Source: Bdellovibrionales bacterium | GTDB lineage: Bacteria > Bdellovibrionota > Bdellovibrionia > Bdellovibrionales > UBA1609 | Direction of reading: 5' to 3' | DNA: 33,922 nucleotides | Assembly (NCBI GenBank): GCA_022450595.1 | Contig: JAKUPT010000029.1 | Coordinates: forward strand, 1 to 33,922 | Shown: positions 15,271 to 33,922 of the stretch, piece by piece | Position numbering within the stretch: position 1 is the first letter of the stretch | Layout: each line of letters starts with the position of its first letter | Notes under the pieces: generated by a model | What the model was told of the DNA's origin: nothing | What the model saw: the letters and a program-made list of their open reading frames with translations, nothing else | Databases searched by the model: none | Made by a program: the position numbers and the translations under genes

Positions 15271-15286
15271 CGAGATACCTCCAGAT

Positions 15287-15307: not shown

Positions 15308-15312
15308 TCAAG

Positions 15313-16498: not shown

Positions 16499-16581
16499 CC
16501 TAATCATTTCAGCTCGTTACGAAGAATTGCCTGCTTAGTTGCAAGCAGGCAGAAAGCACGATAGAAGCACCTGATATTAGG
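16499..16581. repeat. Nested inverted repeats, candidate transfer origin
   Basis: The 183-base gap between the replication-relaxation gene and the lipoprotein gene holds a perfect 9-bp hairpin, TGCCTGCTT (16528-16536) with AAGCAGGCA (16543-16551) and a 6-base loop. Outer arms CCTAATCA (16499-16506) and TGATATTAGG (16572-16581) pair imperfectly. Neither strand has a T-run after the stem, which argues against a terminator. Its place between DNA-processing genes makes it the best oriT candidate in the window, but no nick site is recognised. Confidence 0.4.
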
Positions 16582-16596
16582 CTCCCTAAGTGCAGT

Positions 16597-17331: not shown

Positions 17332-17359
17332 ACCTCTTTTTTGTGACTTTGCCAGAGAC

Positions 17360-18421: not shown

Positions 18422-18433
18422 ACCCGTTCTGTC

Positions 18434-18796: not shown

Positions 18797-19755
18797 CAAT
18801 CGCCGTAATAGGTCGCAACAAGATTCACGATCAACTCTTGACCTGCGGGCACCGTCACAAACTCCTGTTGGTCAGAGAGGTCTTGCGCTCGTCTTTGAGC
18901 TTCCATTTCACTCACCCGAGAAACACCTTGTAAGAGAGCATTTTTGGCCGTTGCCTTGGGCGTCGTCTCCATTGCCATAAAGGCTCCATTACCAACGCCG
19001 CCACCAATAGCCTCTCTTTCCGTTAATGTGTCAGTCATTGCCGACACCATTGTAAGACCTAGAGTAGAAACGATCCGTTCAGTCGTTCGCCCGTGAAATT
19101 CGCCAACTAAACCAGGCGAATAGTCCTTTGAATTTAAGGCTTGAGCGTTGAGGCTTACCTCTCTACCATTTGGTAACAGGGCCTTAGAAAACTGAATAAA
19201 GACCTTTTTGCCTTTTCCTGGATAGTTCACCTTGCCAAAGAGAATAGTATTTTTAGGTATTTCTCCCCCATTTTTATCTCGGCCCCCATAGGGAAGTAAA
19301 ACCTTATAGAGTTGATTCGTTTCACGGGTATCAATGGAGGTCAAAAGCTTACCAACTAAATTTGTTCCCAAGGGGAGCCCGTGAGAAAGTCCCTCTTCTA
19401 CTTTTCTCTTGATGACCTGCGGGGCCCTATATTCAACTTGAGTTATAAGCCTAGGTTGCTCTCGGTGAGGAGCCGATCGAGCCAATTTCTCTTGCTCTTT
19501 CCATTGGGAAGAGTGCAGAAGCCCACTAATAGTGCCAGAAGCTTGAGGATGTTCTTTTTCCTCAACATTTACTTTAATGGGCTCAATGGTCTCGATGATA
19601 ACACTGGAGTCATTCTCCGAACCAAATACAAGAACAACCAAAACACCAAGACTGATTAAAAAAGCAACAAAGAGAAAGGTCCTTTTTCTATTAAGGACCT
19701 CTTTTTCATTCTCCTTTTTGATAAAAAAGGATCGAACCTGATTAAGGCCCTTCAT
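18796..19755 (-). CDS. virB10: VirB10/TraB/TrbI-like secretion channel protein
   Basis: A 319-residue inner-membrane protein spanning the envelope. The short cytoplasmic N-terminus is basic, a single helix lies at about 26-45, then a charged periplasmic linker (about 46-125). The C-terminal beta-barrel domain (about 128-319) has GLPLGTNLVGKLL, KNTILFGKV, LNAQALNSKDYSPGLVGE and the final EFVTVPAGQELIVNL, as expected for VirB10/TrbI. A Gly-rich loop at about 250-260 could be the antenna region. In type IV secretion this protein links the inner-membrane ATPases to the outer core. It overlaps the VirB9 gene by 4 bases. Confidence 0.87.
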   Translation of the reverse strand: MKGLNQVRSFFIKKENEKEVLNRKRTFLFVAFLISLGVLVVLVFGSENDSSVIIETIEPIKVNVEEKEHPQASGTISGLLHSSQWKEQEKLARSAPHREQPRLITQVEYRAPQVIKRKVEEGLSHGLPLGTNLVGKLLTSIDTRETNQLYKVLLPYGGRDKNGGEIPKNTILFGKVNYPGKGKKVFIQFSKALLPNGREVSLNAQALNSKDYSPGLVGEFHGRTTERIVSTLGLTMVSAMTDTLTEREAIGGGVGNGAFMAMETTPKATAKNALLQGVSRVSEMEAQRRAQDLSDQQEFVTVPAGQELIVNLVATYYGD

Positions 19756-20504
19756 TGCAAAAACTTCTGCCCAACGATGACCTTATTCTTTTTATCACCC
19801 AAGACTGCATTCAATGAAAATCCACGCTTCTCACTCAGGGGCAAGAAAAGCCTTGCCCTTGAAGATTTATCACCCTGAAGAGAGTCTTCTTCAATCACAT
19901 AACCTTGGCCACTCAACGGGATATTCCTACGAGTGGCGACCAATTTAAGAGATGAAATCTTGATCTTCTCAGACGTGGTGAGATTTTTAATGTTTATGTC
20001 TATAATTCGGAGCGAGCGCCCCTCATCAGCCATTGTTCTAACAACTTCAATCTGTAAATCCTCTTCCAGAAAAAATTTCAGGCCGATGGCCTTGAATCCA
20101 GGTATAGATGTTTTACCTGCGCTTTGCTCCTGTCTTGATCTAGCTGGTGGCTGAAACCTTGATTTCCATTTAACGTAGACAAGATCATCGTATCGACAGC
20201 CGTGGCAAACCTTCAAAAGAAATCCATAAGTTCGATGTGGAGTGTAGACAAACAGATTGGTTTCCACATCTCCAATAGGCTGAATGGTCAAGTCATTGTC
20301 GATGAATTCCACAGAGTAATAGTTCTGATTACCAATAACCACTTTCTTAGGTTTATCGGGAAAACGAAGAACTGTGGCCTTTCCCATCCTGAGTGAGATG
20401 GCCTGCATTTTTTCATCGTTGACATGCACTGTCCTGATACCACTGGCATGAGCACTAAAGCTCCATGCCAAAAGCAGCCATACCAAAATGGATTTTTCAA
20501 TCAC
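19752..20504 (-). CDS. virB9: VirB9/TraK-like outer core protein
   Basis: A 250-residue secreted protein starting at GTG, overlapping the VirB8-like stop by 4 bases. The signal peptide is clear (MIEKSILVWLLLAWSFSAHA, cut before SG). A VirB9/TraK-like N-terminal domain follows: KATVLRFPDKPKKVVIGN, then TIQPIGDVETNLFVYT. Two Cys (HGCRYDD and the preceding VCHG) may form a disulphide. The C-terminal half is beta-rich and does not show the usual VirB9 ending, so it is closer to TraK-type proteins. It should form the outer-membrane ring with VirB10. Confidence 0.78.
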   Translation of the reverse strand: MIEKSILVWLLLAWSFSAHASGIRTVHVNDEKMQAISLRMGKATVLRFPDKPKKVVIGNQNYYSVEFIDNDLTIQPIGDVETNLFVYTPHRTYGFLLKVCHGCRYDDLVYVKWKSRFQPPARSRQEQSAGKTSIPGFKAIGLKFFLEEDLQIEVVRTMADEGRSLRIIDINIKNLTTSEKIKISSLKLVATRRNIPLSGQGYVIEEDSLQGDKSSRARLFLPLSEKRGFSLNAVLGDKKNKVIVGQKFLQ

Positions 20505-21082
20505 TTCGTTTGATGCTCCTTAATACCATTGACATAAAGTCCAATGGGGTTCCATGTGTTCGGTTTCCCTTGAATAATATTAAGAGAAACTGTGGTTGGA
20601 ACTGGTATAGGAATTCCTTCTATCCTTAAGAGCTTATCAAAATGAGCAACAACTTGTTCTTCAGTCACTTGTACTTCTACATTGACAATGGATTGTGAGG
20701 TTTCTTTCCTTTGAAACTCCTTATCTCTCAGGTGAGTAAGAAGATTATGGAGTTTTTTATTCAACCCATCTGTTGCAATAGGAGCAAGGCTCTTACTCAT
20801 GGCTAAAGGGTCAAGACTCTTCCATTCATATCGAGCCTTAAGGAAACGCTCAACAAATTGTTCAACGGCCCCTTCTGAGATAGGCTGCCCAGCCCTTTTA
20901 CCCATGTGATACGTCTGTGTTTCATTTTCTTTAATGACAACGATCGGATCACCAAAGTACATGATACCGATAATAAGAACCTGAAAAACACAGACCAATA
21001 GAAGCCCTAAGTTAATCAACTTATGATTCCTCAATAGGGCGTTAATATCTGTCCAAGCATTAAGTGATTTGCTTTTTCTCAT
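20501..21082 (-). CDS. virB8: VirB8/TraE-like assembly protein
   Basis: A 193-residue bitopic protein. A basic cytoplasmic segment is followed by one membrane helix (about 24-43 from this start) and a periplasmic NTF2-like domain containing GAVEQFVERFLKARYEW and ending in WNPIGLYVNGI, as in TraE/VirB8 proteins. The ATG at 21082 is chosen because GGAGG lies 11 bases upstream, right at the end of VirB6; an in-frame ATG at 21139 lies deeper in VirB6. VirB8 is a scaffold between the inner-membrane complex and the outer core. Confidence 0.8.
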   Translation of the reverse strand: MRKSKSLNAWTDINALLRNHKLINLGLLLVCVFQVLIIGIMYFGDPIVVIKENETQTYHMGKRAGQPISEGAVEQFVERFLKARYEWKSLDPLAMSKSLAPIATDGLNKKLHNLLTHLRDKEFQRKETSQSIVNVEVQVTEEQVVAHFDKLLRIEGIPIPVPTTVSLNIIQGKPNTWNPIGLYVNGIKEHQTK

Positions 21083-21086
21083 AATT

Positions 21087-22022
21087 TCAATTTCCTCCTT
21101 TTTTTGTTTGTGCTCTGACTTGGGGACGTTTCTTCTCATTTTGTCCCTGCTGAGTTTTTTCTTTTAATCGAGACATACGTTCACTTATAGGGTTAGTGAT
21201 CGGCTTTGCAGCAAAACGCCCAGCAGACCATGCCTTCGTCGCCCCCTGCTTTACCGCTTTCGTTGCATAGAGCTTAGCTGTTGTAGCTGCCGCCATGGCC
21301 GGAACCGAAGCTAGGGCCGAAGCAGCGCTCTCCATTCCATCATTGATAAGTGATCTCGTAGCCACGGGAATAAAAAGCATACTCAATCCAATACAGAGGT
21401 TTAGAATGATCGACAGAAGATAATCCTCCATATTTCCAACCGTAGGATTCATGGCCATCTTCAATAGCAACACACCTAGGACGGTCCACAAAATCTTCCA
21501 AATCACAACTTTAATGAGTCCCTTGTATAAATTCGCAGTAACATTGGCCGTAGACTTAGGGATATAGGCCAAGATCATCAATGGCGAGATGGTAAATAGG
21601 ACGACCCAAACAAAATGAGTGAGTGCCTCTGCGACAAAAAATCCAAGGTAAGCAATGATGTAGGAAATTAAAGCAAAGACATAGAGTATATGCCCTCGCA
21701 AATTAAAGAGCCCACTTGATGACTCTTTGTAGTTTGGTCCTAGGTTTCTCAAGACCTCCCAAACATCCGTAATTTTATCAATCTTTTCAATGATCCCATC
21801 ACCAATCATGCCAATTACGTTAATGGTGTAATCGAAGGAAAAAAGCAGAAGTACAGAAATCACTGTACGTCGTAAGATCTCAAGGACATCTATAGACTCC
21901 TGCTTACCTTTAAAAAACTCAAAAACGATCAGGACAAGGATGAGAGGGATCAGAAGTATCCAATAGAGGTCAAGGACCTCTGATCGGATCTCCTTTGCAA
22001 CCACCGCGAGTTGATCAAACAC
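21087..22022 (-). CDS. virB6: VirB6/TrbL-like polytopic inner-membrane protein
   Basis: A 311-residue protein with about six membrane helices (for example about 18-36, 52-70, 112-135, 140-156, 168-190 and 205-225). A hydrophilic Ala-rich and then basic tail follows (about 230-311). This layout is that of VirB6/TrbL, which forms part of the inner-membrane channel. The start is GTG, two bases after the VirB5 stop. Sequence is poorly conserved in this family, so position within the operon supports the call. Confidence 0.82.
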   Translation of the reverse strand: MFDQLAVVAKEIRSEVLDLYWILLIPLILVLIVFEFFKGKQESIDVLEILRRTVISVLLLFSFDYTINVIGMIGDGIIEKIDKITDVWEVLRNLGPNYKESSSGLFNLRGHILYVFALISYIIAYLGFFVAEALTHFVWVVLFTISPLMILAYIPKSTANVTANLYKGLIKVVIWKILWTVLGVLLLKMAMNPTVGNMEDYLLSIILNLCIGLSMLFIPVATRSLINDGMESAASALASVPAMAAATTAKLYATKAVKQGATKAWSAGRFAAKPITNPISERMSRLKEKTQQGQNEKKRPQVRAQTKKGGN

Positions 22023-22024
22023 GC

Positions 22025-22720
22025 TTAAAACTTAAGAAAGCCTTTATTTCGTTGAAAATTCTTAAAGGCAGCCCCCAAGCTCTGGTCAACTTCCTGGTAA
22101 GACGACACCGACGTTTTGTCCTGTCGGTTTTGCATGGCTAGAGTTTCACTTTGAAGTTTCAAGCTTTGGCTTTGCAGCCTAATCAACTGATTGACACTTT
22201 TTAGAATAAGAGCGTTTGAGACAGCCGCCGAACGTGCTGCACCCTTAGGTGAAGCCACTTCGCTTTGAACTCTTAATGAGTCTGAGTTTCTTTCCTGGGA
22301 CACTGAGAAGTCCTTAAACGAGTTCACCATCTGGAGAGACTCGGCAACAGTTTTATCATGGAGCTGATGCAGGGCCTCTTCTGGCGACTTTGGAATTTGC
22401 CCATAGAGGTCTGCTACGGTTTTAAGGGAGCGGTTAAAATCCCGCAACTCTCTTAAGACTCCTTGATCTTGAACAGGCAAGCCTTCAAGTAGTCCTGTGA
22501 CATTGTCTAGCCCCTGATTAATCGTTCTGAAATAGTTATCAGAACGTCTCGCCTGATCCATCATATGTTTAAGCTGTTGATAACGCTTATAGTTCTCGGC
22601 GAGGATCTTTACCAGATATGGGATCTGTGCCCAACCTGCACCGCCATCCCCCCAAAAACTATGAACGGGTTGAGTAATCAAAAATAATGGCAAAACCATT
22701 GCGATGATTATTTTTCGCAA
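22025..22720 (-). CDS. virB5: VirB5/TrbJ-like secreted protein
   Basis: A 231-residue secreted protein, TTG start with AAGGAGG 5 bases upstream. The signal peptide is MRKIIIAMVLPLFLITQPVHS. Most of the mature protein is alpha-helical with coiled-coil character, including YKRYQQLKHMMDQARR and the C-terminal Gln-rich LIRLQSQSLKLQSETLAMQ stretch, as in TrbJ/VirB5 proteins. VirB5 is a minor pilus or tip component that helps contact recipient cells. It is placed between VirB4 and VirB6, as in many VirB operons. Confidence 0.8.
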   Translation of the reverse strand: MRKIIIAMVLPLFLITQPVHSFWGDGGAGWAQIPYLVKILAENYKRYQQLKHMMDQARRSDNYFRTINQGLDNVTGLLEGLPVQDQGVLRELRDFNRSLKTVADLYGQIPKSPEEALHQLHDKTVAESLQMVNSFKDFSVSQERNSDSLRVQSEVASPKGAARSAAVSNALILKSVNQLIRLQSQSLKLQSETLAMQNRQDKTSVSSYQEVDQSLGAAFKNFQRNKGFLKF

Positions 22721-22738
22721 TAGAACCTCCTTAGATAT

Positions 22739-25165
22739 TTATTGAAAGTCAAAGGCCAGTTTTTCAAGGACATCAAGCTTACTTAAATCAGGATTTTCAG
22801 CCTCCATGTTGGCAATCATCATTTTGTCGTTGGCATCTGAGGTGGAAAACCAGTGACTCAAAGGCTCGGGAACAAGTTGCAAAATGGTCTCGTTCTCGTC
22901 TTGAAGATAGTAAAACTCACTGAACTCGCCCTTTCTAATCCTCAAACTCTTGATTTGCTCCACTTGAGCGTCATCGAAGTCAAAAGTCTTTTTAAAGTCG
23001 TCCCAGTCAATCTTCCGCTGACGCAAGATGATCACGCTTGTCGTGTTTGTCATAAGAGCATCCCGCAGCGACTTGTCGGCCATAAAGTCCTTGTAGTTTT
23101 GGCTAAGACACCAAATACCACTCTTAAACTTCCTCCATGTCCGATAACAGGTAATCACAACCTGTCTAGCCAACTCAGATTGGAAAAGTCGCTCTGCCTC
23201 ATCAATGATGAGTAGGTACTCCCGCTCAATGTCTGAAGAAGCGACATCCTGGATATAGGAGGTGAGCAAAAGCAAAAGAACATCTTTAAGATCCGAATAA
23301 TTGCTTAAATTTTGAACCTCAATAGAAACAAGGTCTTTCGAGAGCTTTACATTTGTTTGGCCGTCTAGCATTTGCCCGTAGGCTGATGAACCCGTCCAAC
23401 TATAAAGAATCTCACCAAACTTTTTCATTTGGGAGTCTTCGTGACGATCCAATAATCGCTTCAAATCCGATAATGTCGGCATCTTCCCGTTGGCATCTTT
23501 GTAAACCCGATGAATCTGCTCTTCAAGAAGGGCCTTTTCACGTTTGCCCAAAGATTTTTTATCATCGTCTTTTAGAATCATCTCAAGAACGGCGAGAACT
23601 GTTCTGATCCTGTCTGGAGTTGGAGCTGTTTCGCCTTCTTTGAGGTCAAACATGTTCAAACAAAGGTTTGAATCTAAGTTGAGATCCAAAAACTCTCCAT
23701 CAAGAATTTCGATCAGCCTTTTAGAAGACGCTCCGTTATCAATCCATACAACCCTGGGTCTAACTAACTTTCCAGAATTATTCCGATGACTTTTCCCATA
23801 GAACATCGCCATAAGCTGCACGACTGTATAGCTTTTTCCACTACCTGATCCTCCAAAAACTATTCCGTTCCAAGCAGGTAGGTGTTCGGCATAAGGATCA
23901 AGTGAAAACAATCTACCGTCCCTTGTAGGAAGTAGACATACAGGCCTTTTGTTTCCGGCCCAACTGGCGAAGACCGGCATAAAATGGGCCGCATTGCTGG
24001 ACTTCATTTTTTTCTGTCTTATTCCTTCACCTCGTCCTGGCAGGGATTTTAAAAAGACTTCCTTGGAGGCCAACGTCTCCTGAAGTCCTTCCGCTTGATT
24101 AATTGATCGGAAGGTCTTTAGAACTTCATCAGTCTTGTCATCAATCTCGGTTTTATTTTTACCCCATATGATCACTGTAAAATCTGAAGAAACGAGTTTC
24201 TCAGAGCCTTCAAGAAGGTTTGCTAATAGACCTTCAATTTGGCCAAGACGATTTTCTGACTCCAAGTCACTGACATTCTGACTACCAGAAGCCATTGAGT
24301 GGGCCACTCGCCTCTTTAACTCCAGTGATGACTTTTCTTTAGCCTGATCGAGCAAGTGAATGGACTGACTGATCCAAAAGTGAAAAGGTATTGTTGAAAA
24401 GACATTGGCCATGGAGGCATAAGTTTGCCCTTCTGGAAGGGTCGATAAACTTATTGTCCTAAACTGGTACTCGCCAAGGTTTATTGCATCTTTATTCCAG
24501 AGAAAGTCTGTCAACGTAAGCTGTTCGCCAAGGGAGGGATCAAGGAAACTCCTTGGCTCCCTATAATCAGTTGGACCAATCCGCTCGACACGGCTTAAAT
24601 TCAAGTATTCAAACATTAATTGAAACCAATCACTTGATTCTAGGGCAACGGGGCCAAGCTTTGCTGAATCTAGAATCGACTCAACTTGCTTAACGGACCG
24701 AAGAAACTTTTCTTTACGCTCAAAGTATTCTTCTTGGGAGATTGTTTCAAATTGCTTGATAGGTGAAAATATCCCTTGCTTTGCCATTCTATAAGACCCA
24801 CTGCGGACAAAAAGATAAATGCTTGGGGTGAAGTACCTATGCTCTGACTGATTCTTCCTGTAGAATTTTAATCTAGCTTGGGCAATCCGTTGATAGGGCC
24901 CTTCCATTTCGCAAGATAAACTCTCATGAGCTTGAATAAGATCTTCCACAACAGGTGAGAGCTTATAGAATACCTGTAACTTTGTTCCTTCCTCTCCCGA
25001 GACCAATAAATTTTCGAGGCTACGGTTCAATTGATTAATTGCTGACTCATTGGCACAGGTCAGATCGAATCCTTCAAGCTTAAACCCTGCACCGAAGGAG
25101 CCGTCACAAAAGATCATCAGGTCATTATCAAAGTGCCATAGGCCTAGTTCTTCAGCGAAACTCAT
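22739..25165 (-). CDS. virB4: VirB4/TraC secretion ATPase
   Basis: An 808-residue ATPase that powers pilus assembly and transfer. The N-terminal part (about 1-400) is the CagE/TraC-like domain. The motor domain has Walker A GGSGSGKS (438-445), then RVVWIDNGASSKRL, and Walker B LLIIDEAERL (651-660), followed by TCYRTWRKFKSGIWCLSQ. Length is as expected (about 800-850). The start overlaps VirB3 by 14 bases and has GGAG upstream. It is the best-conserved protein of the transfer set and the best one for classifying the element. Confidence 0.94.
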   Translation of the reverse strand: MSFAEELGLWHFDNDLMIFCDGSFGAGFKLEGFDLTCANESAINQLNRSLENLLVSGEEGTKLQVFYKLSPVVEDLIQAHESLSCEMEGPYQRIAQARLKFYRKNQSEHRYFTPSIYLFVRSGSYRMAKQGIFSPIKQFETISQEEYFERKEKFLRSVKQVESILDSAKLGPVALESSDWFQLMFEYLNLSRVERIGPTDYREPRSFLDPSLGEQLTLTDFLWNKDAINLGEYQFRTISLSTLPEGQTYASMANVFSTIPFHFWISQSIHLLDQAKEKSSLELKRRVAHSMASGSQNVSDLESENRLGQIEGLLANLLEGSEKLVSSDFTVIIWGKNKTEIDDKTDEVLKTFRSINQAEGLQETLASKEVFLKSLPGRGEGIRQKKMKSSNAAHFMPVFASWAGNKRPVCLLPTRDGRLFSLDPYAEHLPAWNGIVFGGSGSGKSYTVVQLMAMFYGKSHRNNSGKLVRPRVVWIDNGASSKRLIEILDGEFLDLNLDSNLCLNMFDLKEGETAPTPDRIRTVLAVLEMILKDDDKKSLGKREKALLEEQIHRVYKDANGKMPTLSDLKRLLDRHEDSQMKKFGEILYSWTGSSAYGQMLDGQTNVKLSKDLVSIEVQNLSNYSDLKDVLLLLLTSYIQDVASSDIEREYLLIIDEAERLFQSELARQVVITCYRTWRKFKSGIWCLSQNYKDFMADKSLRDALMTNTTSVIILRQRKIDWDDFKKTFDFDDAQVEQIKSLRIRKGEFSEFYYLQDENETILQLVPEPLSHWFSTSDANDKMMIANMEAENPDLSKLDVLEKLAFDFQ

Positions 25166-25472
25166 AGATTTTACTCCTCATATTTGCTAATTTTCTTGGT
25201 TCTTCCCCGGAGGAAAAGAAGCCTGGCTCCAGGTAGAAGCGGATTAGGTGGGCCATAAAATTGTCAGGCTTTCCTTTTTTTCCGACGTAGAAGATTGCAA
25301 TGATGATAATTGGCCCACCAATGACGAGGGGTATTTCAAGAGCCGTTCCACCAAAGAAAAGGTTCATAACTGTGCCGAAAATGAGTGCGAGAAGAAGATC
25401 GAGGGCCTCAAGGCCCCCAATCTTAAACTTGGCATCTAGGTTTCGATGCACTTGCGAGGTGTGAAGCTCGAT
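25152..25472 (-). CDS. virB3: VirB3/TraL-like inner-membrane protein
   Basis: A small protein with two adjacent membrane helices (about 25-65) preceded by NLDAKFKIGGLEALD and followed by YLEPGFF, matching the VirB3/TraL layout. The start is not certain. The stop of the pilin gene (GGAGGGTAA) provides a ribosome binding site, and the codon correctly spaced from it is ATC at 25472, not a standard start. The first usual start after it is GTG at 25451, which lacks a site and shortens the protein to 100 residues. ATGs further upstream would force a long overlap with the pilin gene. VirB3 works with VirB4 at the inner membrane. Confidence 0.78.
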   Translation of the reverse strand: MELHTSQVHRNLDAKFKIGGLEALDLLLALIFGTVMNLFFGGTALEIPLVIGGPIIIIAIFYVGKKGKPDNFMAHLIRFYLEPGFFSSGEEPRKLANMRSKIYEFR

Positions 25473-25476
25473 AAGC

Positions 25477-25788
25477 TTACCCTCCGACGGCGGATTGAAA
25501 CCACCGAATGATGACAGGTGCAAGAAAGCCAATAACGCTGGCGATAACCACCAAGACCATACGCCTTTTGGCCCCCTCATCACCACTTGCTGCAAGCAGG
25601 GCCGCGTAGAGAAGGCCCAGGATAGCTACAGCAGGAAGGATGACGGAAATGATATTGTCAGTAAAACCCTTGATACGGCTTTCAAAACCACTTCCTCCAA
25701 AACCCTGGGCCAGTGCTGGGTCGGCAAATAGAAGCATCCCACCGACTAAGGCAACAAGACCCACAACCCAAATATTTTTTGAAATCAT
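25477..25788 (-). CDS. virB2: VirB2/TrbC-like pilin
   Basis: A 103-residue pilin precursor. A signal peptide (about 1-27, ending ADPALA before Q) is followed by a short loop and two membrane helices (about 44-66 and 75-93) with the usual small polar turn (GDEGAKRR) between. This is the classic VirB2/TrbC shape. The start ATG directly follows the stop of the upstream gene. It forms the conjugative pilus subunit. Confidence 0.92.
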   Translation of the reverse strand: MISKNIWVVGLVALVGGMLLFADPALAQGFGGSGFESRIKGFTDNIISVILPAVAILGLLYAALLAASGDEGAKRRMVLVVIASVIGFLAPVIIRWFQSAVGG

Positions 25789-26130
25789 TTAGTTATTTAG
25801 ATAGAGCACCAAGGTTTTAAACTTCGATCCGTAGTTGACAAAGATGTTTCCACTTGTACTTTCATCACTATAACCACGTCCAACAAGCTGACGCTTCAAA
25901 AATGTTCCATCTTTCTTTTTAACGACCAATTCCATTCTGAAATCAATTCGATCATTTTCACTGCCACACGGCTTTAAAAAATATTGCTTTTCACTTGGCT
26001 CCTCATCAATTTTGAGAATATATTCTCCATAGGTTGGGTTATAAAAGCTAACCCCAGCGTTATGGACGCTGTTGTCTCTTGGATCAAGCCAGCCCAATAG
26101 CAATGTTTCGATGTTTTGTTTATTTGTCAT
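25789..26130 (-). CDS. Unknown protein at the head of the secretion genes
   Basis: A 113-residue soluble protein, no signal or membrane segment. It looks beta-rich: GVSFYNPTYGEYILKIDEE, then FRMELVVKKKDGTFLKRQLV, GRGYSDE and NIFVNYGSKFKTLVLYL. Its stop touches the pilin start. It has AGGGGG as ribosome binding site. GRGYSDE and the ending NIFVNYGS are loosely echoed in the next protein upstream (GHGYYDE, NIYINLSS), so the two may be distant relatives. Function unknown. Confidence 0.7.
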   Translation of the reverse strand: MTNKQNIETLLLGWLDPRDNSVHNAGVSFYNPTYGEYILKIDEEPSEKQYFLKPCGSENDRIDFRMELVVKKKDGTFLKRQLVGRGYSDESTSGNIFVNYGSKFKTLVLYLNN

Positions 26131-26218
26131 TAAAGACCCCCTTAAAATTTGAACACAACACTTCCCACGTTGCTTCCCCGTAAAATCTTAGTAGTATTTA
26201 AAAGTTCTCCTTATTATT

Positions 26219-26578
26219 TTATGCAGCATCTTTAAATGCCTCATTAGCCTTGTAACTAGATAGGTTGATGTAAATGTTCGAGCTGTCGTAAAAATCCCAA
26301 ACAAGTCGAATGAGTCCGGCATTTTGACCATGCAGAAGATAGCCGACACCTACGGGCTCCAGGTTTTCGCTTTTCATCTCTTCATAATAAATGACGTAAT
26401 CATGAGCGGCGTTGATGTCAGTTTCAGGCTCAAGAGTGTAGCCGTCTTTTTCAAACCCATAAATTCGTAGTTCACAAAGATCCAGCTTCTCATCATAGTA
26501 GCCGTGGCCCACACTGCGAACTTTTAGAATCTGTCCTCTTTTACTTTTACGTCCCTTAAACATGTCAAATAACATCAT
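26219..26578 (-). CDS. Unknown protein, possible relative of the 25789 product
   Basis: A 119-residue soluble protein with a basic start (KGRKSKRGQ), then a beta-rich body including VGHGYYDEKLDLCELRIYGF, HDYVIYYEEM, GVGYLLHGQ and SSNIYINLSS. No known domain was recognised. The two adjacent ATGs follow a GGGGGG run. An 88-base spacer follows it before the next gene. It is probably a cytoplasmic accessory protein. Confidence 0.65.
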   Translation of the reverse strand: MMLFDMFKGRKSKRGQILKVRSVGHGYYDEKLDLCELRIYGFEKDGYTLEPETDINAAHDYVIYYEEMKSENLEPVGVGYLLHGQNAGLIRLVWDFYDSSNIYINLSSYKANEAFKDAA

Positions 26579-26593: not shown

Positions 26594-26839
26594 TTACGCT
26601 ACCAGTGATAATTTTTGAGATCGTGAAAATTGAGGCTGGCTCAGACAATCTTTTTTCATCTTAAGCAGTGCCGCTCGCAGTAGATTGTCGGCCTCTCCCC
26701 AGCTTATTCTTAAGGCCTTGGCAATTTCAAAAATTGAATAGTTGTGCCAGAACCTGAGAACCACAGCCTTCTTTTGTGCCGGTGGTAGCCGCTTTAAAAT
26801 TGATCTAGCAACGATCTGATCCGCTGTAGAAAACTCCAT
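26594..26839 (-). CDS. Sigma-70 region 4-like regulator
   Basis: An 81-residue protein made of one helix-turn-helix: LKRLPPAQKKAVVLRFWHNYSIFEIAKALRISWGEADNLLRAALLKMKKD. The LP..QK..V.LRF..N.S..EIA pattern is that of sigma region 4 in ECF-type factors. No region 2 is present, so it cannot act as a full sigma factor alone. The ATG at 26839 has GGAGG 4 bases upstream; the longer frame back to 26950 has no match. It lies directly after another region 4-like protein. Confidence 0.72.
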   Translation of the reverse strand: MEFSTADQIVARSILKRLPPAQKKAVVLRFWHNYSIFEIAKALRISWGEADNLLRAALLKMKKDCLSQPQFSRSQKLSLVA

Positions 26840-26942
26840 GAGACCTCCATTTTTTTGTGTTTTAGTTGATGCGCTTTTCTTGCCCCTCACCCATACGGAA
26901 AAAGTCAACCCAGCGGACAAAACGACAACCGATCGACAACCT

Positions 26943-27413
26943 CTACGCACTCAACACTTCTTTTAATGCCTCAACTTTCCTCTGAATGACTCCTCTTGTG
27001 AGACTGATCTTTAGCCGCTCATGAGCCGACTTCATTGTTTTTTGAATAGCCTGCTTGCTCACTCCACGGAGTCTGGCAATCTCCCCAATGGTTTTCCCTT
27101 CCCAATAGTATTGATGGATGACCTGACGTTGTTTTGTGGGTAGCTCACGGATGCAGGAGTTTAATGCAGCCTTAAGGAGTGGAAACTGTTCCTCACTCGC
27201 GAGAGAGAAGAGCAGACCTGCGCACTCCTGCGCTGAAAACTTATCTAAATTCGATGAGGAAACCAGAGTGTCTTCTTTCTGCGCGACCTCGATACTTGTG
27301 AGATACTCTTCCCAGACCGATGGCCCCCAATCCTTACAGATTTCTCTTAGCTCATGGTCGCTCTTTGCTGATCCATCTTCATTGAGCCATGGTTTTTGAT
27401 TTTCGTTATTCAT
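26943..27413 (-). CDS. Sigma-70 region 4-like regulator, first gene of the transfer operon
   Basis: A 156-residue protein. The C-terminal part contains IRELPTKQRQVIHQYYWEGKTIGEIARLRGVSKQAIQKTMKSAHERLK, a clear sigma region 4 helix-turn-helix. The N-terminal part (about 1-90) is acidic and helical without a region 2 signature. The ATG at 27413 is favoured over the adjacent ATG at 27416 because of better spacing to a GGGGG site. As the first gene after the predicted sigma-54 promoter (27480-27495), it is likely an early regulator of the transfer genes. Confidence 0.75.
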   Translation of the reverse strand: MNNENQKPWLNEDGSAKSDHELREICKDWGPSVWEEYLTSIEVAQKEDTLVSSSNLDKFSAQECAGLLFSLASEEQFPLLKAALNSCIRELPTKQRQVIHQYYWEGKTIGEIARLRGVSKQAIQKTMKSAHERLKISLTRGVIQRKVEALKEVLSA

Positions 27414-27479
27414 CATTACCCCCTTATTGTTTTTAGGTTTTAGAGCCACAAACTTATGGCCTCTTCAGGGGGAAGCTAT

Positions 27480-27495
27480 TACAAGGGATAAGCCA
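27480..27495 (-). promoter_or_regulatory. Predicted sigma-54 promoter of the transfer operon
   Basis: Minus strand reads TGGCTTATCCCTTGTA. The spacing of GG to GT (12 bases) matches the sigma-54 -24/-12 rule, with TTGT instead of TTGC. It agrees in 13 of 16 bases with the candidate before the activator gene. The start point would be near 27469, leaving a leader of about 56 bases before the first gene. Confidence 0.6.
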
Positions 27496-27569
27496 ATTAC
27501 GAGAATGCGCTAAAGCTTCGATTAATCTGGCATTTCAAAATTTGTCTCTATCTATTTAGAGTTGGCCAA

Positions 27570-27585
27570 CTACAAGATATTGAGA
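27570..27585. promoter_or_regulatory. Degenerate copy of the CTACAA-N4-TTGTAG palindrome
   Basis: CTACAAGATATTGAGA has a perfect left half and keeps TTG of the right half. It lies about 101-116 bases upstream of the predicted transfer operon start point, a normal place for an NtrC-type enhancer. Confidence 0.5.
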
Positions 27586-27625
27586 TGTCTTGGAAAAAGT
27601 AAGGTAAAAACAATAGGATGAGTAA

Positions 27626-27641
27626 CTTCAGAATGTTGTAG
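27626..27641. promoter_or_regulatory. Second degenerate copy of the palindrome upstream of the transfer operon
   Basis: CTTCAGAATGTTGTAG has a perfect right half, also followed by GAAG, close to the GAAA seen after two of the strong copies. The left half matches in 4 of 6 bases. Its centre lies 56 bases from the neighbouring copy and about 165 bases from the predicted start point. Confidence 0.5.
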
Positions 27642-27783
27642 AAGATAAGTGATCCTTTAAGTGCACGCCTATAGAAATTTGAAAAAGCAGACCTGTTACA
27701 TCATCAGTGATTCAAGTGTTTAGACATCATTTCCAAGGAATGCTATTCTTGCTCAACGATTGTTTTCCAATAGGAGCACCAAA

Positions 27784-28677
27784 TTGAATTATCTGGATAA
27801 ACTAAGGAAAGAATTAACTGATATTGAATCTCTGTTCTACGAACTTTTGGATACTGTAAAGATAGAGTATTGTGACCCCAATGACGATCCACACTCAGGG
27901 GTTGTGATTATCACGTTAACTTGTTATTTTTGGCGAGATGGTGAAAACCCTATCGATACGAGAGCAAAACAACGACTTGTAAAAGACCGATTCTCAGACT
28001 TAAAACGAAACATTTTATTTTTGTGTGACAACGACACTGAGAACATTCAAAAAGAATTGCAAGATGTCTTCAAAAGGCTTGAGTCATACATTGAGCAAAA
28101 GTCTAACCCTATGACACCTCAAAATATTGACGAAGCAAAGAAGAATGTTAGGAAGTGGTTACTAGAAGTCCACAACGCACTTAACCATATTCAAAAAGCC
28201 ACTAATGACAACACCGCTATATTGATTCCAGATACGAATGCATTGGTGATTTCTCCTGATCCCGCTTCTTATAAAGAGCTTCTTAACACCCCTTCATTTA
28301 TCTTTGTGATTACAACACCTGTGCTGAGAGAGCTTGACAACCAAAAAGATGATGGCCGAAAAGTGGAAACATATAGAGCCAAAGTTAGAAAAGCTATCAA
28401 AAGGATTAAAGGATTTAGAAACCAAGGTGATATTACTACTGGCATAATAGTAGACAGAACGATTACGGTTAAAATGGATTACAAAGAACCAGCCATGACT
28501 AAAGCAATTGATTGGCTAGATCCAAGTAATGTGGATGATCAAATTATTATAAGGGCCTTAGAACTACAAAAACAAAATCCATGCTCAAGTGTTACCGTCG
28601 TAACATCTGACATTAATTTGCAAAACAAAGCTCTCGGCGCGAAGTTAAATTTTCTGGAGCCGCCGGGTCAAGACTAG
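27784..28677 (+). CDS. PIN-domain ribonuclease-like protein
   Basis: A 297-residue cytoplasmic protein. The C-terminal PIN domain (about 143-295) shows the acidic residues of PIN nucleases: D150 in IPDTNALV, E183 in LRELD, D252 in DDQIIIRAL and D276 in VTSDINL. The last block is similar to PIN domains fused to PhoH. The N-terminal part (about 1-140) is helical and unknown. The start is TTG at 27784 with AGGAG 7 bases upstream; a TTG at 27760 is less well placed. Its direction is opposite to the transfer operon. No antitoxin-like partner gene is next to it, so a simple VapBC pair is unlikely. It could be a defence or maintenance gene. Confidence 0.82.
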   Translation: MNYLDKLRKELTDIESLFYELLDTVKIEYCDPNDDPHSGVVIITLTCYFWRDGENPIDTRAKQRLVKDRFSDLKRNILFLCDNDTENIQKELQDVFKRLESYIEQKSNPMTPQNIDEAKKNVRKWLLEVHNALNHIQKATNDNTAILIPDTNALVISPDPASYKELLNTPSFIFVITTPVLRELDNQKDDGRKVETYRAKVRKAIKRIKGFRNQGDITTGIIVDRTITVKMDYKEPAMTKAIDWLDPSNVDDQIIIRALELQKQNPCSSVTVVTSDINLQNKALGAKLNFLEPPGQD

Positions 28678-28705: not shown

Positions 28706-28894
28706 CTAGTTGCAATACGTAGTATTGCCGTAAGTAGAGCATGATGTACCATCGCTCCCGTAGGTTGTATTACCATATGTAGAATAGCTTGTTCCATCAC
28801 TGCCATAGGTCGTATTTCCATATGTCGTATAACTTGACTGAGCAAAAGACTGTAAAGAAATTAGACACGTGGTCAAAAGTAATAATAACTTCAT
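28706..28894 (-). CDS. Small secreted tandem-repeat protein
   Basis: A 62-residue product with a signal peptide (MKLLLLLTTCLISLQSFA, cut before QS). The mature part is a 15-residue repeat, two full units of xTTYGNTTYGSDGTS type and a last partial unit ending in TYGNTTYCN. It is rich in Tyr, Thr, Gly, Ser and Asn. Two Cys lie only in the final unit. The ribosome binding site AGGGAGC is 8 bases upstream. The repeats are also visible in DNA as 45-base units. The composition suggests a surface or matrix peptide, adhesin fragment or signal. Function is unknown. Confidence 0.75.
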   Translation of the reverse strand: MKLLLLLTTCLISLQSFAQSSYTTYGNTTYGSDGTSYSTYGNTTYGSDGTSCSTYGNTTYCN

Positions 28895-29052: not shown

Positions 29053-29496
29053 TCACTCACTATAAACCCCACCCCACATTTTTCGGATGCGCCCATCATG
29101 CACATAATAGATGAAGCTGATTGTGGCCTTCTTTTTCCCATTGTCCTTCACTTCTGTGGTCATGACAAAGGGGCCGTTAGAGCGAATATCAACAAGAGTG
29201 GCGGGAAGAAATTGGCCGGATTCAATTTGGCCAAGAACATGCTGTCTGATCTCATCCTTTGAATTGGCAATTATTTTTTCATCAGGAAGAGCAACAACCT
29301 TCAAGTCATCAGAAAAATGCTGAAGGCATCCCTCTACGTCTTTATTGTTATAGGCTTCAAGCTGCGCCCTTACGATTCTCTCTTCATTAGTTTCTGCCAT
29401 ATCTCCCCCCATCAATCTCTCACAGGTATTTGCATAAATATTATAGCTGATCATTCCCATGCAAATAACCAGCACTGCCAGCAGTTTAAATTTCAT
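29053..29496 (-). CDS. Secreted NTF2/SnoaL-like protein
   Basis: A 147-residue exported protein. The signal peptide is MKFKLLAVLVICMGMISYNIYA. The mature part has the cone-shaped NTF2 fold pattern: EERIVRAQLEAYNNKDVEGCLQHFSDDLKVV, KDEIRQHVLGQI and a C-terminal sheet ending in YYVHDGRIRKMW. SnoaL-like proteins bind or convert small molecules; no catalytic residues could be assigned. AAGGGGGAT serves as ribosome binding site. A good sigma-54 -24/-12 element lies 41-55 bases upstream of the start codon, and palindromic enhancer sites lie further upstream, shared with the activator gene. Confidence 0.78.
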   Translation of the reverse strand: MKFKLLAVLVICMGMISYNIYANTCERLMGGDMAETNEERIVRAQLEAYNNKDVEGCLQHFSDDLKVVALPDEKIIANSKDEIRQHVLGQIESGQFLPATLVDIRSNGPFVMTTEVKDNGKKKATISFIYYVHDGRIRKMWGGVYSE

Positions 29497-29536
29497 CCTA
29501 TCCCCCTTGGCCTATTTGGTTTCGCTATTCACTTGA

Positions 29537-29551
29537 GCAAGCCTGGGGCCA
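29537..29551 (-). promoter_or_regulatory. Predicted sigma-54 promoter of the SnoaL-like gene
   Basis: Minus strand reads TGGCCCCAGGCTTGC. The GG and GC dinucleotides have the exact sigma-54 spacing, and TTGC is the consensus -12 element. The start point would be near 29525, about 29 bases before the ATG. The nearest palindrome (29640-29655) is about 115-130 bases upstream. Confidence 0.68.
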
Positions 29552-29639: not shown

Positions 29640-29655
29640 CTACAAAAAATTGTAT
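29640..29655. promoter_or_regulatory. CTACAA-N4-TTGTAG palindrome, copy 1
   Basis: CTACAAAAAATTGTAT differs from the perfect palindrome by its last base. It is the copy closest to the minus-strand sigma-54 promoter. Its start is 92 bases from that of copy 2. Confidence 0.68.
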
Positions 29656-29731
29656 TAAACAAAGTTTGCTTAAAAACCTTTTATTTAACAAGTGGTTATA
29701 AGCATTTTAACTAAACCCATCATAGGAGGGA

Positions 29732-29747
29732 CTACAAAAAATTGTAG
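29732..29747. promoter_or_regulatory. CTACAA-N4-TTGTAG palindrome, copy 2
   Basis: CTACAAAAAATTGTAG is a perfect palindrome with 6-base arms (8 bases if the central A/T pairs are counted), followed by AAA. It lies exactly 100 bases from copy 3, close to whole helical turns. Confidence 0.72.
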
Positions 29748-29831
29748 AAATGGAGCGTCCCATCAAATATAAGGTAATTCCCAGTAGTTTCCGTAACTTG
29801 CTGGGATATGGGATTAAGATGAAATTTGGGG

Positions 29832-29847
29832 CTACAACATCTTGTAG
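29832..29847. promoter_or_regulatory. CTACAA-N4-TTGTAG palindrome, copy 3
   Basis: CTACAACATCTTGTAG has perfect 6-base arms with a different centre, so the arms rather than the centre are conserved. It is again followed by AAA and lies about 124-139 bases upstream of the predicted start point of the activator gene. Confidence 0.72.
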
Positions 29848-29944: not shown

Positions 29945-29960
29945 TGGCACATGCCTTGTA
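29945..29960 (+). promoter_or_regulatory. Predicted sigma-54 promoter of the activator operon
   Basis: TGGCACATGCCTTGTA has a perfect TGGCAC -24 element and TTGT at -12 with correct spacing (consensus TTGC). The start point would be near 29971, about 35 bases before the ATG. Together with the upstream palindromes it predicts that the activator drives its own gene. Confidence 0.68.
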
Positions 29961-30005: not shown

Positions 30006-31409
30006 ATGAAAGCAAGAGTTATAGCCATTGATGATGATGAAATGTTTTTAACGGCGACCCGTTCGCTCTTTAACGACAAGCAAATTCCTTTGGCAACATT
30101 CACCAACTCTCAAAAGGCCTTGAGGGCCATAAGGGAGGCACGTGAACAGCATTCGCCATTTAGGATGGCCATTGTTGACTATGATATGCCGACTAAAGGC
30201 CATGAAGTCATTAGAAGCATCAAGCAGATTGATCCAAGCATTCATACCGTGGTTCTCTCAGCTCATCTATCGAGTGAAGAAGCCAAGCTTTGCACCCATG
30301 CTGGAGCCGATCACATTTATCTCAAGCAAAAAAGCAAAGAAGTGATTTTACTTATTGCTGAGGTAGCTTCACTCAAGGTCAAGCACGGCGAACTTAGCAA
30401 AGAGGAGAAAGAAGCCAATAATGATTGGATCAAAAAAATTCTTGGCCTTCGCGGCCACTCATCCGCACTTGCCCAAGTGGCCAATGAGGTTAGCAAATAT
30501 GCCTTAGCGGGAGAGAATGTTCTTATCACGGGACAGTCAGGGGTTGGAAAAGAACAGGTGGCCCGATCTCTTCATGATAATTCAAAACGCAGCGGAAACT
30601 TTATTGCCATTAACTGTGGAGCCATATCGAAAGACTTGGTTGAAAGTGAACTCTTTGGGCACACAAAAGGCGCTTTCTCAGGGGCAACGGCCAATAAAAC
30701 TGGAAAATTCGTTGCTGCGAACTTTGGAACCTTATTCCTTGATGAAATTGGAGAGATGCCTCTCGATTTACAAGTTAAATTGCTGAGAGTCCTTCAAGAA
30801 GGAGAAGTTGTTCCTGTGGGTAGCAACACGGTTACAAAAGTTGATGTGAGAATCGTTGCCGCAACCAATCGTGACCTTCTGGAAGAGGTTCGACGGGGGA
30901 ACTTTAGAGAGGACCTGTATTATCGCCTCAATATCCTCCCCATCCACATTCCACCTCTATCGGAAAGAAAAGAAGATATAGCACCCATTGCTAGATACAT
31001 CGTTGATCAGAAAAACAGAGAATCAAAGATTGATAAAACCATCACTGACGATGCGATAAAGATGCTCATGGGCCATGCATGGCCTGGAAACATTAGGGAG
31101 CTGGGTGCAAGAATCAGAAAGGCCTACACTCTAGCTGACCAGGTAATTGATCGCTCAGCCTTTACAGATTTAACTCCAGAAGATGATGTTGCAAATGCGC
31201 TCAATGAAATACAATGCCCTGAGGAATTCCCATCATATGAGGAATTCGTCGAAAAAATCAGGAACCACCTTGAGCGTATATACTTAGAAAAAGCAATGGT
31301 CTTAGCCAACGGCAAACGAGCTGATGCGGCCAAGCTCACAAAGCTTCCATACACAACCTATATCCATAAAAGAAAAAAACTCGGCTTAACTGCCGGACAT
31401 TCCATTTAA
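30006..31409 (+). CDS. NtrC-type sigma-54 activator with receiver domain
   Basis: A 467-residue response regulator in three parts. The receiver (about 1-120) has the acidic triad DDD near the N-terminus, phospho-acceptor D58 in IVDYDMP and K107. The AAA+ domain (about 145-375) has Walker A GQSGVGKE (176-183), the sigma-54 contact loop GAFSGA (222-227, Ser in place of the common Thr), Walker B TLFLDE and FREDLYYRLN. A Fis-type helix-turn-helix lies at about 420-462 (GKRADAAKLTKLPYTTYIHKRKK). It should open sigma-54 promoters after phosphorylation. The ATG at 30006 has GAGGGG upstream; an in-frame GTG at 29994 is less likely. No partner kinase gene is seen. Palindromes upstream of its own promoter and of the transfer operon are its likely binding sites. 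Confidence 0.95.
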   Translation: MKARVIAIDDDEMFLTATRSLFNDKQIPLATFTNSQKALRAIREAREQHSPFRMAIVDYDMPTKGHEVIRSIKQIDPSIHTVVLSAHLSSEEAKLCTHAGADHIYLKQKSKEVILLIAEVASLKVKHGELSKEEKEANNDWIKKILGLRGHSSALAQVANEVSKYALAGENVLITGQSGVGKEQVARSLHDNSKRSGNFIAINCGAISKDLVESELFGHTKGAFSGATANKTGKFVAANFGTLFLDEIGEMPLDLQVKLLRVLQEGEVVPVGSNTVTKVDVRIVAATNRDLLEEVRRGNFREDLYYRLNILPIHIPPLSERKEDIAPIARYIVDQKNRESKIDKTITDDAIKMLMGHAWPGNIRELGARIRKAYTLADQVIDRSAFTDLTPEDDVANALNEIQCPEEFPSYEEFVEKIRNHLERIYLEKAMVLANGKRADAAKLTKLPYTTYIHKRKKLGLTAGHSI

Positions 31410-31430: not shown

Positions 31431-31919
31431 ATGAAGATGAATAAGAAAACTGTTATGATCTTGGCCGCACTTGGAGTTATTCATGCAAAAGAGGGATGGG
31501 CCCAAGATTATTTGGGAACAATAAATTCGGATGATGGCACACCAACCTTGAATGCAGAGAGCTTACAGATTCACCCTGAAACGCTTCGGGTTCTTAAAAT
31601 GTTTTCTGATCTTGGAGCACTTGGCTTTGATGAAGAAGAAGGAATTGTTTATGTCGACCCGTCAAAGCTTCCTGTTTTTGTCATCGCAGCTCTGGAACAT
31701 TCTAGTGAAGTTCTCTTCGATGAAGAACTAGGACTTTATATTTTGGACGACCACTTCGTCGAGGTCTTAGCAACCACTCATAGCTTTTCTCGGCTAGTGC
31801 GCCCCGATGCAGCAGTCATTAACGCTAAAATCCTTGAGCGACTAAAAAGAGATACGTCCCCAATATTAAGAGATGACCTAAAAGTCTATGCGAAGAGTAG
31901 TTTTTTGGCGGGTTTTTAA
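31431..31919 (+). CDS. Secreted protein of unknown function in the activator operon
   Basis: A 162-residue exported protein. The signal peptide (about 1-25) has the basic start MKMNKK and ends in GWAQ. The mature part is acidic and helical, with paired similar segments around GFDEEEGIVYVDPSKLP and LFDEELGLYILDDHF, perhaps an internal repeat. AGGAGGG is placed 7 bases upstream. It starts 21 bases after the activator and shares its stop with the next start (TAATG), so it is made together with the solute-binding protein, and may act with it in the periplasm. No family was recognised. Confidence 0.75.
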   Translation: MKMNKKTVMILAALGVIHAKEGWAQDYLGTINSDDGTPTLNAESLQIHPETLRVLKMFSDLGALGFDEEEGIVYVDPSKLPVFVIAALEHSSEVLFDEELGLYILDDHFVEVLATTHSFSRLVRPDAAVINAKILERLKRDTSPILRDDLKVYAKSSFLAGF

Positions 31920-33421
31920 TGAGGAAATCTCTTTGCCTAATATTGGGGGGAATTATGTTGAGTTTACTTGTACCAAAAAGTGAAGCCCAAGCCTCTTTAG
32001 GGTTAACAGACCTTAGAGTACAGCTTAAGCCAACAGATATTCCTCCGTTTGATAAGGGAGCATCCGTTGACTCGATGTACGCAACGATTGCTCCCATACT
32101 AGGACAGTTGGTCTATACGACTGACTCTTATGATTTGGTCCCTGGCCTTCTGGAGTCCCTTAACTTTGATTATAAAAGAGGAGCTTATATCCTAAGGCTG
32201 AGAGATGGGCTGGTCTTTCACAACGGCAGAAAGGTTACATCCAAAGACCTAGAGTTTTCGTTGCTACGGGGTTTCTACTCCAAGAAACCGTCATTTTTTA
32301 TTTCGTTTCTGAATAATATCGAAGGAATAGAGAGCATCAAAAATGATAAGACTTTTGTAAGTGGAAAAGTAAAAGGTCTTAAACTATTGGATGAAAGAAC
32401 TCTTGAGGTCAGGCTAATAAAACCGAACCCCTCATTTCTCCATTCGATAGCAAGACCTTACTTTTCACCAGTTCCTATAGAGGCCCTACAAGACGACTAT
32501 GAAACCTGGAAGACCTATCCCGTCGGAGCAGGCAGCTACATAGTGACTTCCTTTAATTCAGAGAAAAGGCTCTTAAAACTTAAATCCATCAAAAATGGCC
32601 GGACCATATCAATTCATTACGGGAATGCCCCTTTTATAAGCGATATTGAAGTGGCCACGCATACTGAGAACAAAGAAATTGCTGCCTCCAAGAGAGCTGC
32701 AAGCCTGACTTCAATTTATTTTAACTACAATAATGCGGTCGCGGCCTATTTACGTTTTAGGCAAGCAATTCATTTAGCAGTTGACCGCGATGACTTAAGC
32801 CTTGGCGTTGAAATTTATACTCCGGCTCACGAGTTTTTAGCCCAACACCTGCCAGGTCGAACAATGACCAGAGTTAATAGAAACCTTGATAAGGCCAAGG
32901 CTCTCTTAAAGAGCATTGATGGTCTCGACCTTTCGCAAACATATGAAATCCCAATCTTCAGTGGCCAGATTGAAGATGCCAAATATGGTGCCTATGCAAA
33001 GAAATTAGAAAGACAACTTTCCGATGTTGGTTTGAAGGTTCGGTTAGTCAATTCTACAGAGAAGCTCTTTGACAAGAGCAACAAAACTACTCTTTTTAGA
33101 CTTGCCTCTCTCGGGGCGGACGTAGCTGACCCCTTGGTTCTATTCGGATTATTAAGAGGCGATGATTCACCTCTGAATCCCCATTTCCCAAGAAAGGATA
33201 CTCAATTTGAGCAACTTTTGGATGAGGCCCAGCTAGCGGCCACATTTGATCAAAAGATTCTATCAGTTAAAGGACTCTCAGAGTATGTGCAGAAAAACGT
33301 GTGGATGGTCCCACTATTTGAGAAAAAGCTGATGATTTCCATTAACCCTAGCCGGGTACAAAATGTTGGACGGCAGGATGGTGGGCTCACCTTTTTTCTC
33401 GACAGAGTGACTCTTAAATAG
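31919..33421 (+). CDS. Family 5 extracellular solute-binding protein (peptide/oligopeptide type)
   Basis: A 500-residue periplasmic protein. The signal peptide ends at about 23 (SEA), without a lipobox Cys. The mature part follows SBP_bac_5/OppA: PGLLESLNFD, a strong RLRDGLVFHNGRKVTSKDLEFSL block (about 95-117), PVGAGSYIV, the RFRQAIHLAVDRDDL motif (about 285-300) and a C-terminal lobe. OppA-type proteins bind peptides, dipeptides or nickel for ABC import. No permease or ATPase follows in the visible part. Its presence directly behind a regulator on a conjugative element recalls pheromone-binding PrgZ/TraC of enterococcal plasmids, but the similarity is by role and family only. Confidence 0.87.
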   Translation: MRKSLCLILGGIMLSLLVPKSEAQASLGLTDLRVQLKPTDIPPFDKGASVDSMYATIAPILGQLVYTTDSYDLVPGLLESLNFDYKRGAYILRLRDGLVFHNGRKVTSKDLEFSLLRGFYSKKPSFFISFLNNIEGIESIKNDKTFVSGKVKGLKLLDERTLEVRLIKPNPSFLHSIARPYFSPVPIEALQDDYETWKTYPVGAGSYIVTSFNSEKRLLKLKSIKNGRTISIHYGNAPFISDIEVATHTENKEIAASKRAASLTSIYFNYNNAVAAYLRFRQAIHLAVDRDDLSLGVEIYTPAHEFLAQHLPGRTMTRVNRNLDKAKALLKSIDGLDLSQTYEIPIFSGQIEDAKYGAYAKKLERQLSDVGLKVRLVNSTEKLFDKSNKTTLFRLASLGADVADPLVLFGLLRGDDSPLNPHFPRKDTQFEQLLDEAQLAATFDQKILSVKGLSEYVQKNVWMVPLFEKKLMISINPSRVQNVGRQDGGLTFFLDRVTLK

Positions 33422-33430
33422 GTGTATGTG

Positions 33431-33922
33431 ATGGATAGTTGGTTTTTTGGCAAATCAGGATTTGAAAAGATAAAGGAGCTGAATGACTCCCTGAGGGGAA
33501 AGACTCTTGACTGTGTAAATGCCAAGCTAGAGGAAAATTTCGTCCATTATTCGCCTTGGATGAGCCATATTGACCAGACAGAAAAACTGGCTTCATTGTA
33601 TCCAAAGAAGAACCTGATTCTATCAGGTGGAAGTGATCTAAAACTTTTAGAAGAAGAGTATCTGCAAACAGACCTTGAAAAGAAACTGACATTTGGGGAT
33701 CTACCTGATGATGAAGATTTGCTACTCAGACTGGCAATTTCAGACCTTCAATTTGGGGGAACAGATTTAACTCCGCTTTTTAATGAAATTGTCTTTCATA
33801 TTGTGCCGATGAACACGGAGAACGGAGAATTTCAAAAGATTGGAAATGGCTTTAGCACCCACCTTGCCAGAGGCGCGATATTTATAAGTGTTCCCAAGCT
33901 TGGAGATAATAGCCTCTTGCAA
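33431..33922 (+). CDS. Partial open frame at the window edge, function unknown
   Basis: An open frame of 164 codons begins with ATG at 33431, ten bases after the solute-binding protein's stop, with TAGGTG upstream, and runs off the right edge without a stop. The visible part starts MDSWFFGKSGFEKIKEL and is acidic and helical, with LSGGSDLKLLEEEYL near the middle. The last part (NGFSTHLARGAIFISVP) loosely recalls the segment before the HExxH site in a family of HExxH-type peptide hydroxylase-like proteins, but the site itself would lie outside the window. It seems to be the fourth gene of the activator operon. Confidence 0.7.
   Translation, partial: MDSWFFGKSGFEKIKELNDSLRGKTLDCVNAKLEENFVHYSPWMSHIDQTEKLASLYPKKNLILSGGSDLKLLEEEYLQTDLEKKLTFGDLPDDEDLLLRLAISDLQFGGTDLTPLFNEIVFHIVPMNTENGEFQKIGNGFSTHLARGAIFISVPKLGDNSLLQ

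Follow-up and report, generated by a model that had tools for sequence, protein, structure and literature searches.

What turns on the transfer genes of the mobile element in this DNA? The window, by which we mean the whole stretch of 33,922 nt that was analysed, is one contig (C79) of the 156 that make up a genome of 3.06 Mb. The preliminary description had placed the type IV secretion operon of this element under an NtrC-type activator carried by the element itself. This proposal is backed by orthologous elements, by the spacing of the candidate sites and by co-variation over six binding specificities, and we estimate a probability of about 0.8 that the transfer operon is turned on by the host's sigma-54 polymerase through the element's own activator.

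The element starts at ∼12.8 kb and extends rightwards, and the end of the window at 33922 falls inside it. Domain searches detected Resolvase/Recombinase, VirB4/TraC, FtsK-type ATPase, TrbI, TrbC and Replic_Relax proteins; judged by this gene set, it is an integrative and conjugative element. A run of ∼20 genes on the minus strand leads from 27416 down to 12876, recombinase included, with gaps of no more than 99 nt between genes except at the VirB2 slot. Besides the genes in Table 1, this putative transfer operon codes for CagX/VirB9-like and TrbI/VirB10 proteins, an FtsK-type ATPase and a Replic_Relax protein. The start of its first gene was set at the ATG at 27416, according to the ribosome-binding site, and not at the GTG of the longest open reading frame. 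At the other end, a tRNA-Pro gene (12821–12897) overlaps the end of the serine recombinase reading frame.

Table 1. Genes, candidate promoters and candidate activator sites of the element in the window; mismatches are to CTACAAN4TTGTAG
Feature	Position	Strand	Sequence	Remarks
Serine recombinase	12876–14705	−		In putative transfer operon
VirB4/TraC	22739–25165	−		In putative transfer operon
VirB2	25477–25788	−		In putative transfer operon
Remainder of putative transfer operon	12876–26578	−		
Second transfer-operon gene	26594–26950	−		Sigma-70 region 4-type protein
First transfer-operon gene	26943–27416	−		Sigma-70 region 4 helix-turn-helix protein; ATG 27416
Sigma-54-like core of transfer operon	27480–27495	−	TGGCTTATCCCTTGTA	Predicted +1 at 27469
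Candidate proximal activator site	27570–27585		CTACAAGATATTGAGA	3 mismatches; 75–90 bp upstream of −24 element
Candidate middle activator site	27626–27641		CTTCAGAATGTTGTAG	2 mismatches; 56 bp from proximal site
Candidate distal, vestigial site	27669–27684		CTATAGAAATTTGAAA	4 mismatches; 43 bp beyond middle site
Divergent candidate sigma-54 promoter of SnoaL-like gene	29536–29551	−	TGGCCCCAGGCTTGCT	Faces the same three activator sites
Activator site	29640–29655		CTACAAAAAATTGTAT	1 mismatch
Activator site	29732–29747		CTACAAAAAATTGTAG	Perfect
Activator site	29832–29847		CTACAACATCTTGTAG	Perfect
Candidate sigma-54 promoter of activator	29945–29960	+	TGGCACATGCCTTGTA	
Activator	30006–31409	+		Receiver, sigma-54 AAA+, C-terminal Fis-type helix-turn-helix
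Small putatively exported protein	31431–31919	+		Activator operon
SBP_bac_5 solute-binding protein	31919–33421	+		Activator operon
Gene start cut by contig end	33422–33922	+		48% identical to a 279-aa HExxH-type protein of G121

The core assigned to the transfer operon has an intact GG at −24 and the right spacing, with GT instead of GC at −12, and it aligns with TAGGCACACCACTTGTA ahead of the corresponding gene of the element in G121. We confirmed the reported identity of 13 out of 16 bases between this core (27495–27480, minus strand) and the candidate in front of the activator (29945, plus strand). Taking the GG as −25/−24 gives a start point at 27469, so the degenerate palindromes at 27570 and 27626 lie 101–116 and 157–172 bp upstream, as had been described. 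Mismatches are counted over the 12 defined positions of CTACAAN4TTGTAG. In the region upstream of the transfer operon, the site at 27669 was the third-best match to the motif.

Cores were scored in bits with approximate weights, not those of a published matrix; on this scale the transfer core reached 9.2, and the number of sites expected by chance per window is 20 for scores over 8 bits and 8 for scores over 10. Its presence within 150 nt upstream of the gene start had a p of 0.02 against shuffled sequences, and of 256 other genes, 8% had a core at least as good in the same interval. The window contained 4 palindromes with exactly two mismatches (1.4 expected) and 18 with exactly three (16 expected). 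The core and both palindromes being near chance, the window sequence alone was rejected as sufficient evidence. Each part of the transfer promoter is unremarkable singly, and its significance comes instead from position, spacing and comparative tests.

The palindromes at the activator promoter are far beyond chance, with 0.07 sites of one mismatch or fewer expected per window. The array of three is flanked by strong sigma-54 cores, one for the activator (score 14.3, also with GT at −12) and one for a divergent gene whose SnoaL-like product (29053–29551) is possibly exported. This divergent promoter was also found in G121 and L106. G121, L106 and G007:C55 have retained the SnoaL-like gene at this place, and G045, L107 and L108 have a distant counterpart. 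Across the genome, CTACAAN4TTGTAG with at most one mismatch occurs at 20 places, where the only intergenic copies are the three at the activator promoter. In a check for further genomic targets, the other 17 sites all lay inside open reading frames, and a sigma-54-like core stood close to just one of them. The operator thus seems to be specific to the element.

Receiver, AAA+ and lid domains were identified in the activator by Pfam, and its C-terminal helix-turn-helix by alignment only. The loop that contacts sigma-54, canonically GAFTGA, reads GAFSGA in the window, GSFSGA in G121 and GSFTGA in G007:C55 and L106. RpoN is encoded in the genome (one Sigma54_DBD protein, E 8.5e-66). The activator modules of G121 and G007:C55 include a hybrid histidine kinase. 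No homologue of the G121 kinase was found in the window's genome, where the contig ends inside the gene preceding the expected place. Together with the HExxH-type protein and hybrid kinase of the relatives, the genes downstream of the activator (31431–33922) may form a signal-sensing module tied to conjugation.

Orthologues of the activator were present in three other elements, G121:C200 (81% identical), L106 (73%) and G007:C55 (71%). All three have a three-site array and a TGGCAC sigma-54 core (score 15.8) at the activator promoter, and, ahead of the transfer genes, CTACAA palindromes together with a sigma-54-like core. The transfer promoter of G007:C55 has three sites with one mismatch each and a core of 13.1; that of L106 has sites at 14299, 14341 and 14397 and a core of 14.2; that of G121 has sites with one and two mismatches and a core of 10.5. 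The element of G121 encodes the same secretion system as the window (VirB4 82% identical), and its site cluster and GGC-N8-TTGTAAT core are kept in a transfer region that has otherwise diverged. The secretion system of G007:C55 is very different, with a VirB4 only 22% identical, and recent shared descent of the operon is thus no explanation for the shared sites. The GT at −12 recurs in the transfer promoters of G121, G007:C55 and G007:C42, and GC is found in those of L106, G045, L107 and L108.

Matrices built from the activator promoters of the other elements were then applied to each transfer region in a leave-one-out fashion, and the p-value was 0.003 for the window and at the floor of 0.0002 for each of the other three. 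Across the 34 kb of the window, the site at 27626 ranked fourth, behind the three activator sites, making it the best site outside the activator promoter. The three best matches in the window's transfer region (27570, 27626 and 27669) are spaced by 56 and 43 bp, and the three sites at the transfer promoters of G007:C55 and L106 by 56 and 42 bp, an agreement reproduced by 0.02% of 5000 shuffles. From the proximal site to the core, start to start, the distance is 90 bp in the window as compared with ∼100 bp in G007:C55 and L106, i.e. one helical turn less. The layout in G121 is different, the two best sites at its transfer promoter being 24 bp apart.

If the activator controls transfer, operators at the two promoters should change together, and 13 elements were compared for this. 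In an earlier version of the matrix the motifs of G007:C42, G002 and G010 had been found from both promoters; the test was therefore redone blindly, with each motif chosen from the activator promoter only. In 10 of the 13 elements the motif matched the element's own transfer region (p < 0.01), covering six different palindromes, with p ∼0.008 for the window and the floor of 0.002 for the remaining nine. Among these palindromes were GTTACGAAN2TTCGTAAC (L107 and L108), GACACGAAN2TTCGTGTC (G045), TCAAGATCTTGA (G007:C42), TTGACCN8GGTCAA (G002) and GGGTAAN2TTACCC (G022). The three elements that fell short were G010 (p ∼0.05), G025 and a second element in the window's genome; a de novo motif search in the latter two gave nothing convincing. 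Motifs seldom matched across specificity classes, and most matches between elements lay inside one class. The exceptions were the G007:C42 motif on L106, the L108 motif on G045, where the operators are related, and the G010 motif on G002, where the DNA-binding domains are similar. Recognition helices and DNA-binding domains group as the operators do. Because some of the elements are related by lineage, these counts do not amount to a formal probability. A search of a viral collection matched only generic activators.

Sigma-54-like cores stand beside the transfer sites in 8 of 10 elements, with scores of 13–14 in five; no core of at least 9 was found upstream of the transfer genes of G002 and G010. 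Where both promoters have a core, the one for transfer was the weaker in all eight pairs (activator/transfer 14.3/9.2, 15.8/10.5, 15.8/13.1, 15.8/14.2, 18.1/14.2 three times, and 14.5/11.3). This suggests a threshold switch, and the pairs being related, the difference in strength is suggestive only.

The switch that we propose would work as follows. After a signal, the kinase of the activator's own module would phosphorylate the activator, which would bind the CTACAAN4TTGTAG palindromes and loop onto sigma-54 polymerase. The three strong sites (29640–29847) would serve the activator's own promoter and that of the divergent SnoaL-like gene, and the weaker array (27570, 27626 and 27669) the transfer promoter at 27495. 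Since its sites and core are stronger than those for transfer, autoactivation should come first: the activator would raise its own level, and transfer would be turned on only when the level of active activator is high. The recombinase would come on along with transfer, provided that the minus-strand genes are transcribed as a unit.

In a different account, the only targets of the activator are its own promoter and that of the divergent SnoaL-like gene, the transfer sites have decayed, and the operon is silent or read from an unseen sigma-70-type promoter. The window sites are indeed degenerate, the core is weak and both are near chance when taken alone, and the partner kinase was not found in the genome; with a core that lacks the C at −12 and scores 9.2, the window copy may well be weak or decaying. 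However, the three-site spacing has been preserved, G121 has retained its sites and core in a diverged region, and the transfer promoter is generally the weaker one throughout the group, not just in the window. In addition, no sigma-70-like site was found by simple consensus on the minus strand upstream of the operon, and the operon's reading frames are intact in the window. We therefore regard decay as distinctly unlikely. It is less probable still that the activator, bound ahead of the transfer operon, represses it or has an architectural function: such sites would in principle allow this or activation, and the poor −12 element of the window copy would fit, but the sites lie at ∼100–200 bp upstream of the start, where enhancers are typically found, and the cores beside them in most elements, five at 13–14, argue for activation.

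The proteins at the head of the operon offer another possibility, namely that sigma-70 region 4-type proteins and a sigma-70 promoter set the level of transfer, with sigma-54 only priming it. Genes of this type head the transfer operons of the window, G121, G007:C55, G007:C42, G025 and G026. Against this, the proteins are without sigma region 2 and so are not complete sigma factors, and a downstream sigma-70 promoter was not identified. This arrangement, which we consider unlikely, would be compatible with activation by the element's own NtrC-type protein.

That activator resembles the NtrC family in its receiver, AAA+ and Fis-type domains, in palindromes ∼90–300 bp upstream of a −24/−12 core, and in its apparent autoregulation; it differs in its predicted target, an operon for conjugation and recombination on a mobile element. 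Pheromone-inducible conjugation provides a likeness of another kind. On enterococcal pheromone plasmids, the gene for PrgZ, a solute-binding protein of family 5, lies next to that of a transfer regulator, and in the window, too, an element-borne solute-binding protein may stand beside such a regulator. The PrgZ/TraC systems, however, use an intracellular peptide receptor and not a kinase, an NtrC-type activator and sigma-54.

Sigma-54 control of conjugation by an enhancer-binding protein carried on the element had been said to seem unusual. This is fair, although a precedent exists in CTnDOT, whose element-borne two-component system RteA/RteB controls its own excision and transfer (PMC1976400). 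It is the closest parallel, in that the element carries its own two-component control of transfer. The CTnDOT system is tetracycline-responsive and acts through a further step, RteB activating rteC, which controls the excision and transfer genes. In the window the transfer promoter itself has the candidate sites, the activator is preceded by a candidate sigma-54 promoter and operators of its own, and the activator operon includes a solute-binding protein; no tetracycline-resistance gene was seen among the window proteins scanned for domains. For CTn214, which is related to CTnDOT, the domain set searched includes Response_reg, Sigma54_activat and HTH_8 (PMC10865816). The vocabulary of conjugation, type IV secretion and mobile elements is absent from a survey of sigma-54 control (PMC3162934). 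The open-licence literature searched contained no account of a transfer promoter with operators for a sigma-54 activator encoded on the element, an absence that is weak evidence.

The regulatory modules lie on contigs assigned to Bdellovibrionaceae, Bdellovibrio sp. and Oligoflexia, several of them belonging to the family of the window's genome, and G007 carries two elements with different operators. A tentative generalization, for which we would put the odds somewhat below even, is of a module in Bdellovibrionota that senses an outside signal (by a solute-binding protein, an HExxH-type protein and a hybrid kinase), passes it to an autoactivating sigma-54 activator and so controls one promoter for conjugation and recombinase. 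Such a module would be exchanged between very different secretion systems, with operator and activator diversifying together and co-resident elements free of cross-talk. A promoter of the sigma-54 kind gives no transcription until an energised activator acts on it, a property well suited to an element that has to be kept off in most cells. If the proposal is correct, conjugation would be controlled in a new way, by a conserved sigma-54 switch that belongs to the element and whose operators co-evolve with it. Such a switch would also give a handle on the movement of mobile elements in predatory bacteria and their relatives, and a ready family of activator–operator pairs for tests of specificity. 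With a solute-binding protein encoded in the activator operon, the question of which signal triggers transfer can be put to a direct test.

Several minor features were also recorded. A PIN-domain gene (27760–28677), divergent to the transfer operon, sits between it and the activator module, and no homologue was seen at the corresponding place in G121. A small open reading frame at 28706–28894, with no match in a Pfam search, codes for 62 aa in which a TYG/GSDGTS-like pattern is repeated; a sigma-54-like core (score 12.0) lies 108 bp upstream of it, at 29002 on the minus strand. The second such element of the window's genome (L048 and L046; G000:C123 and C86) likewise has an activator and a solute-binding protein upstream, appears to be divided between these two contigs within VirB4, and showed no clear shared operator. 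VirB4 is represented by two adjacent reading frames in G010:C97 (L045, 14284–16769) and G002:C13 (L047, 10802–13284), divided at the same place in both, at about residue 458–466 of the window VirB4.
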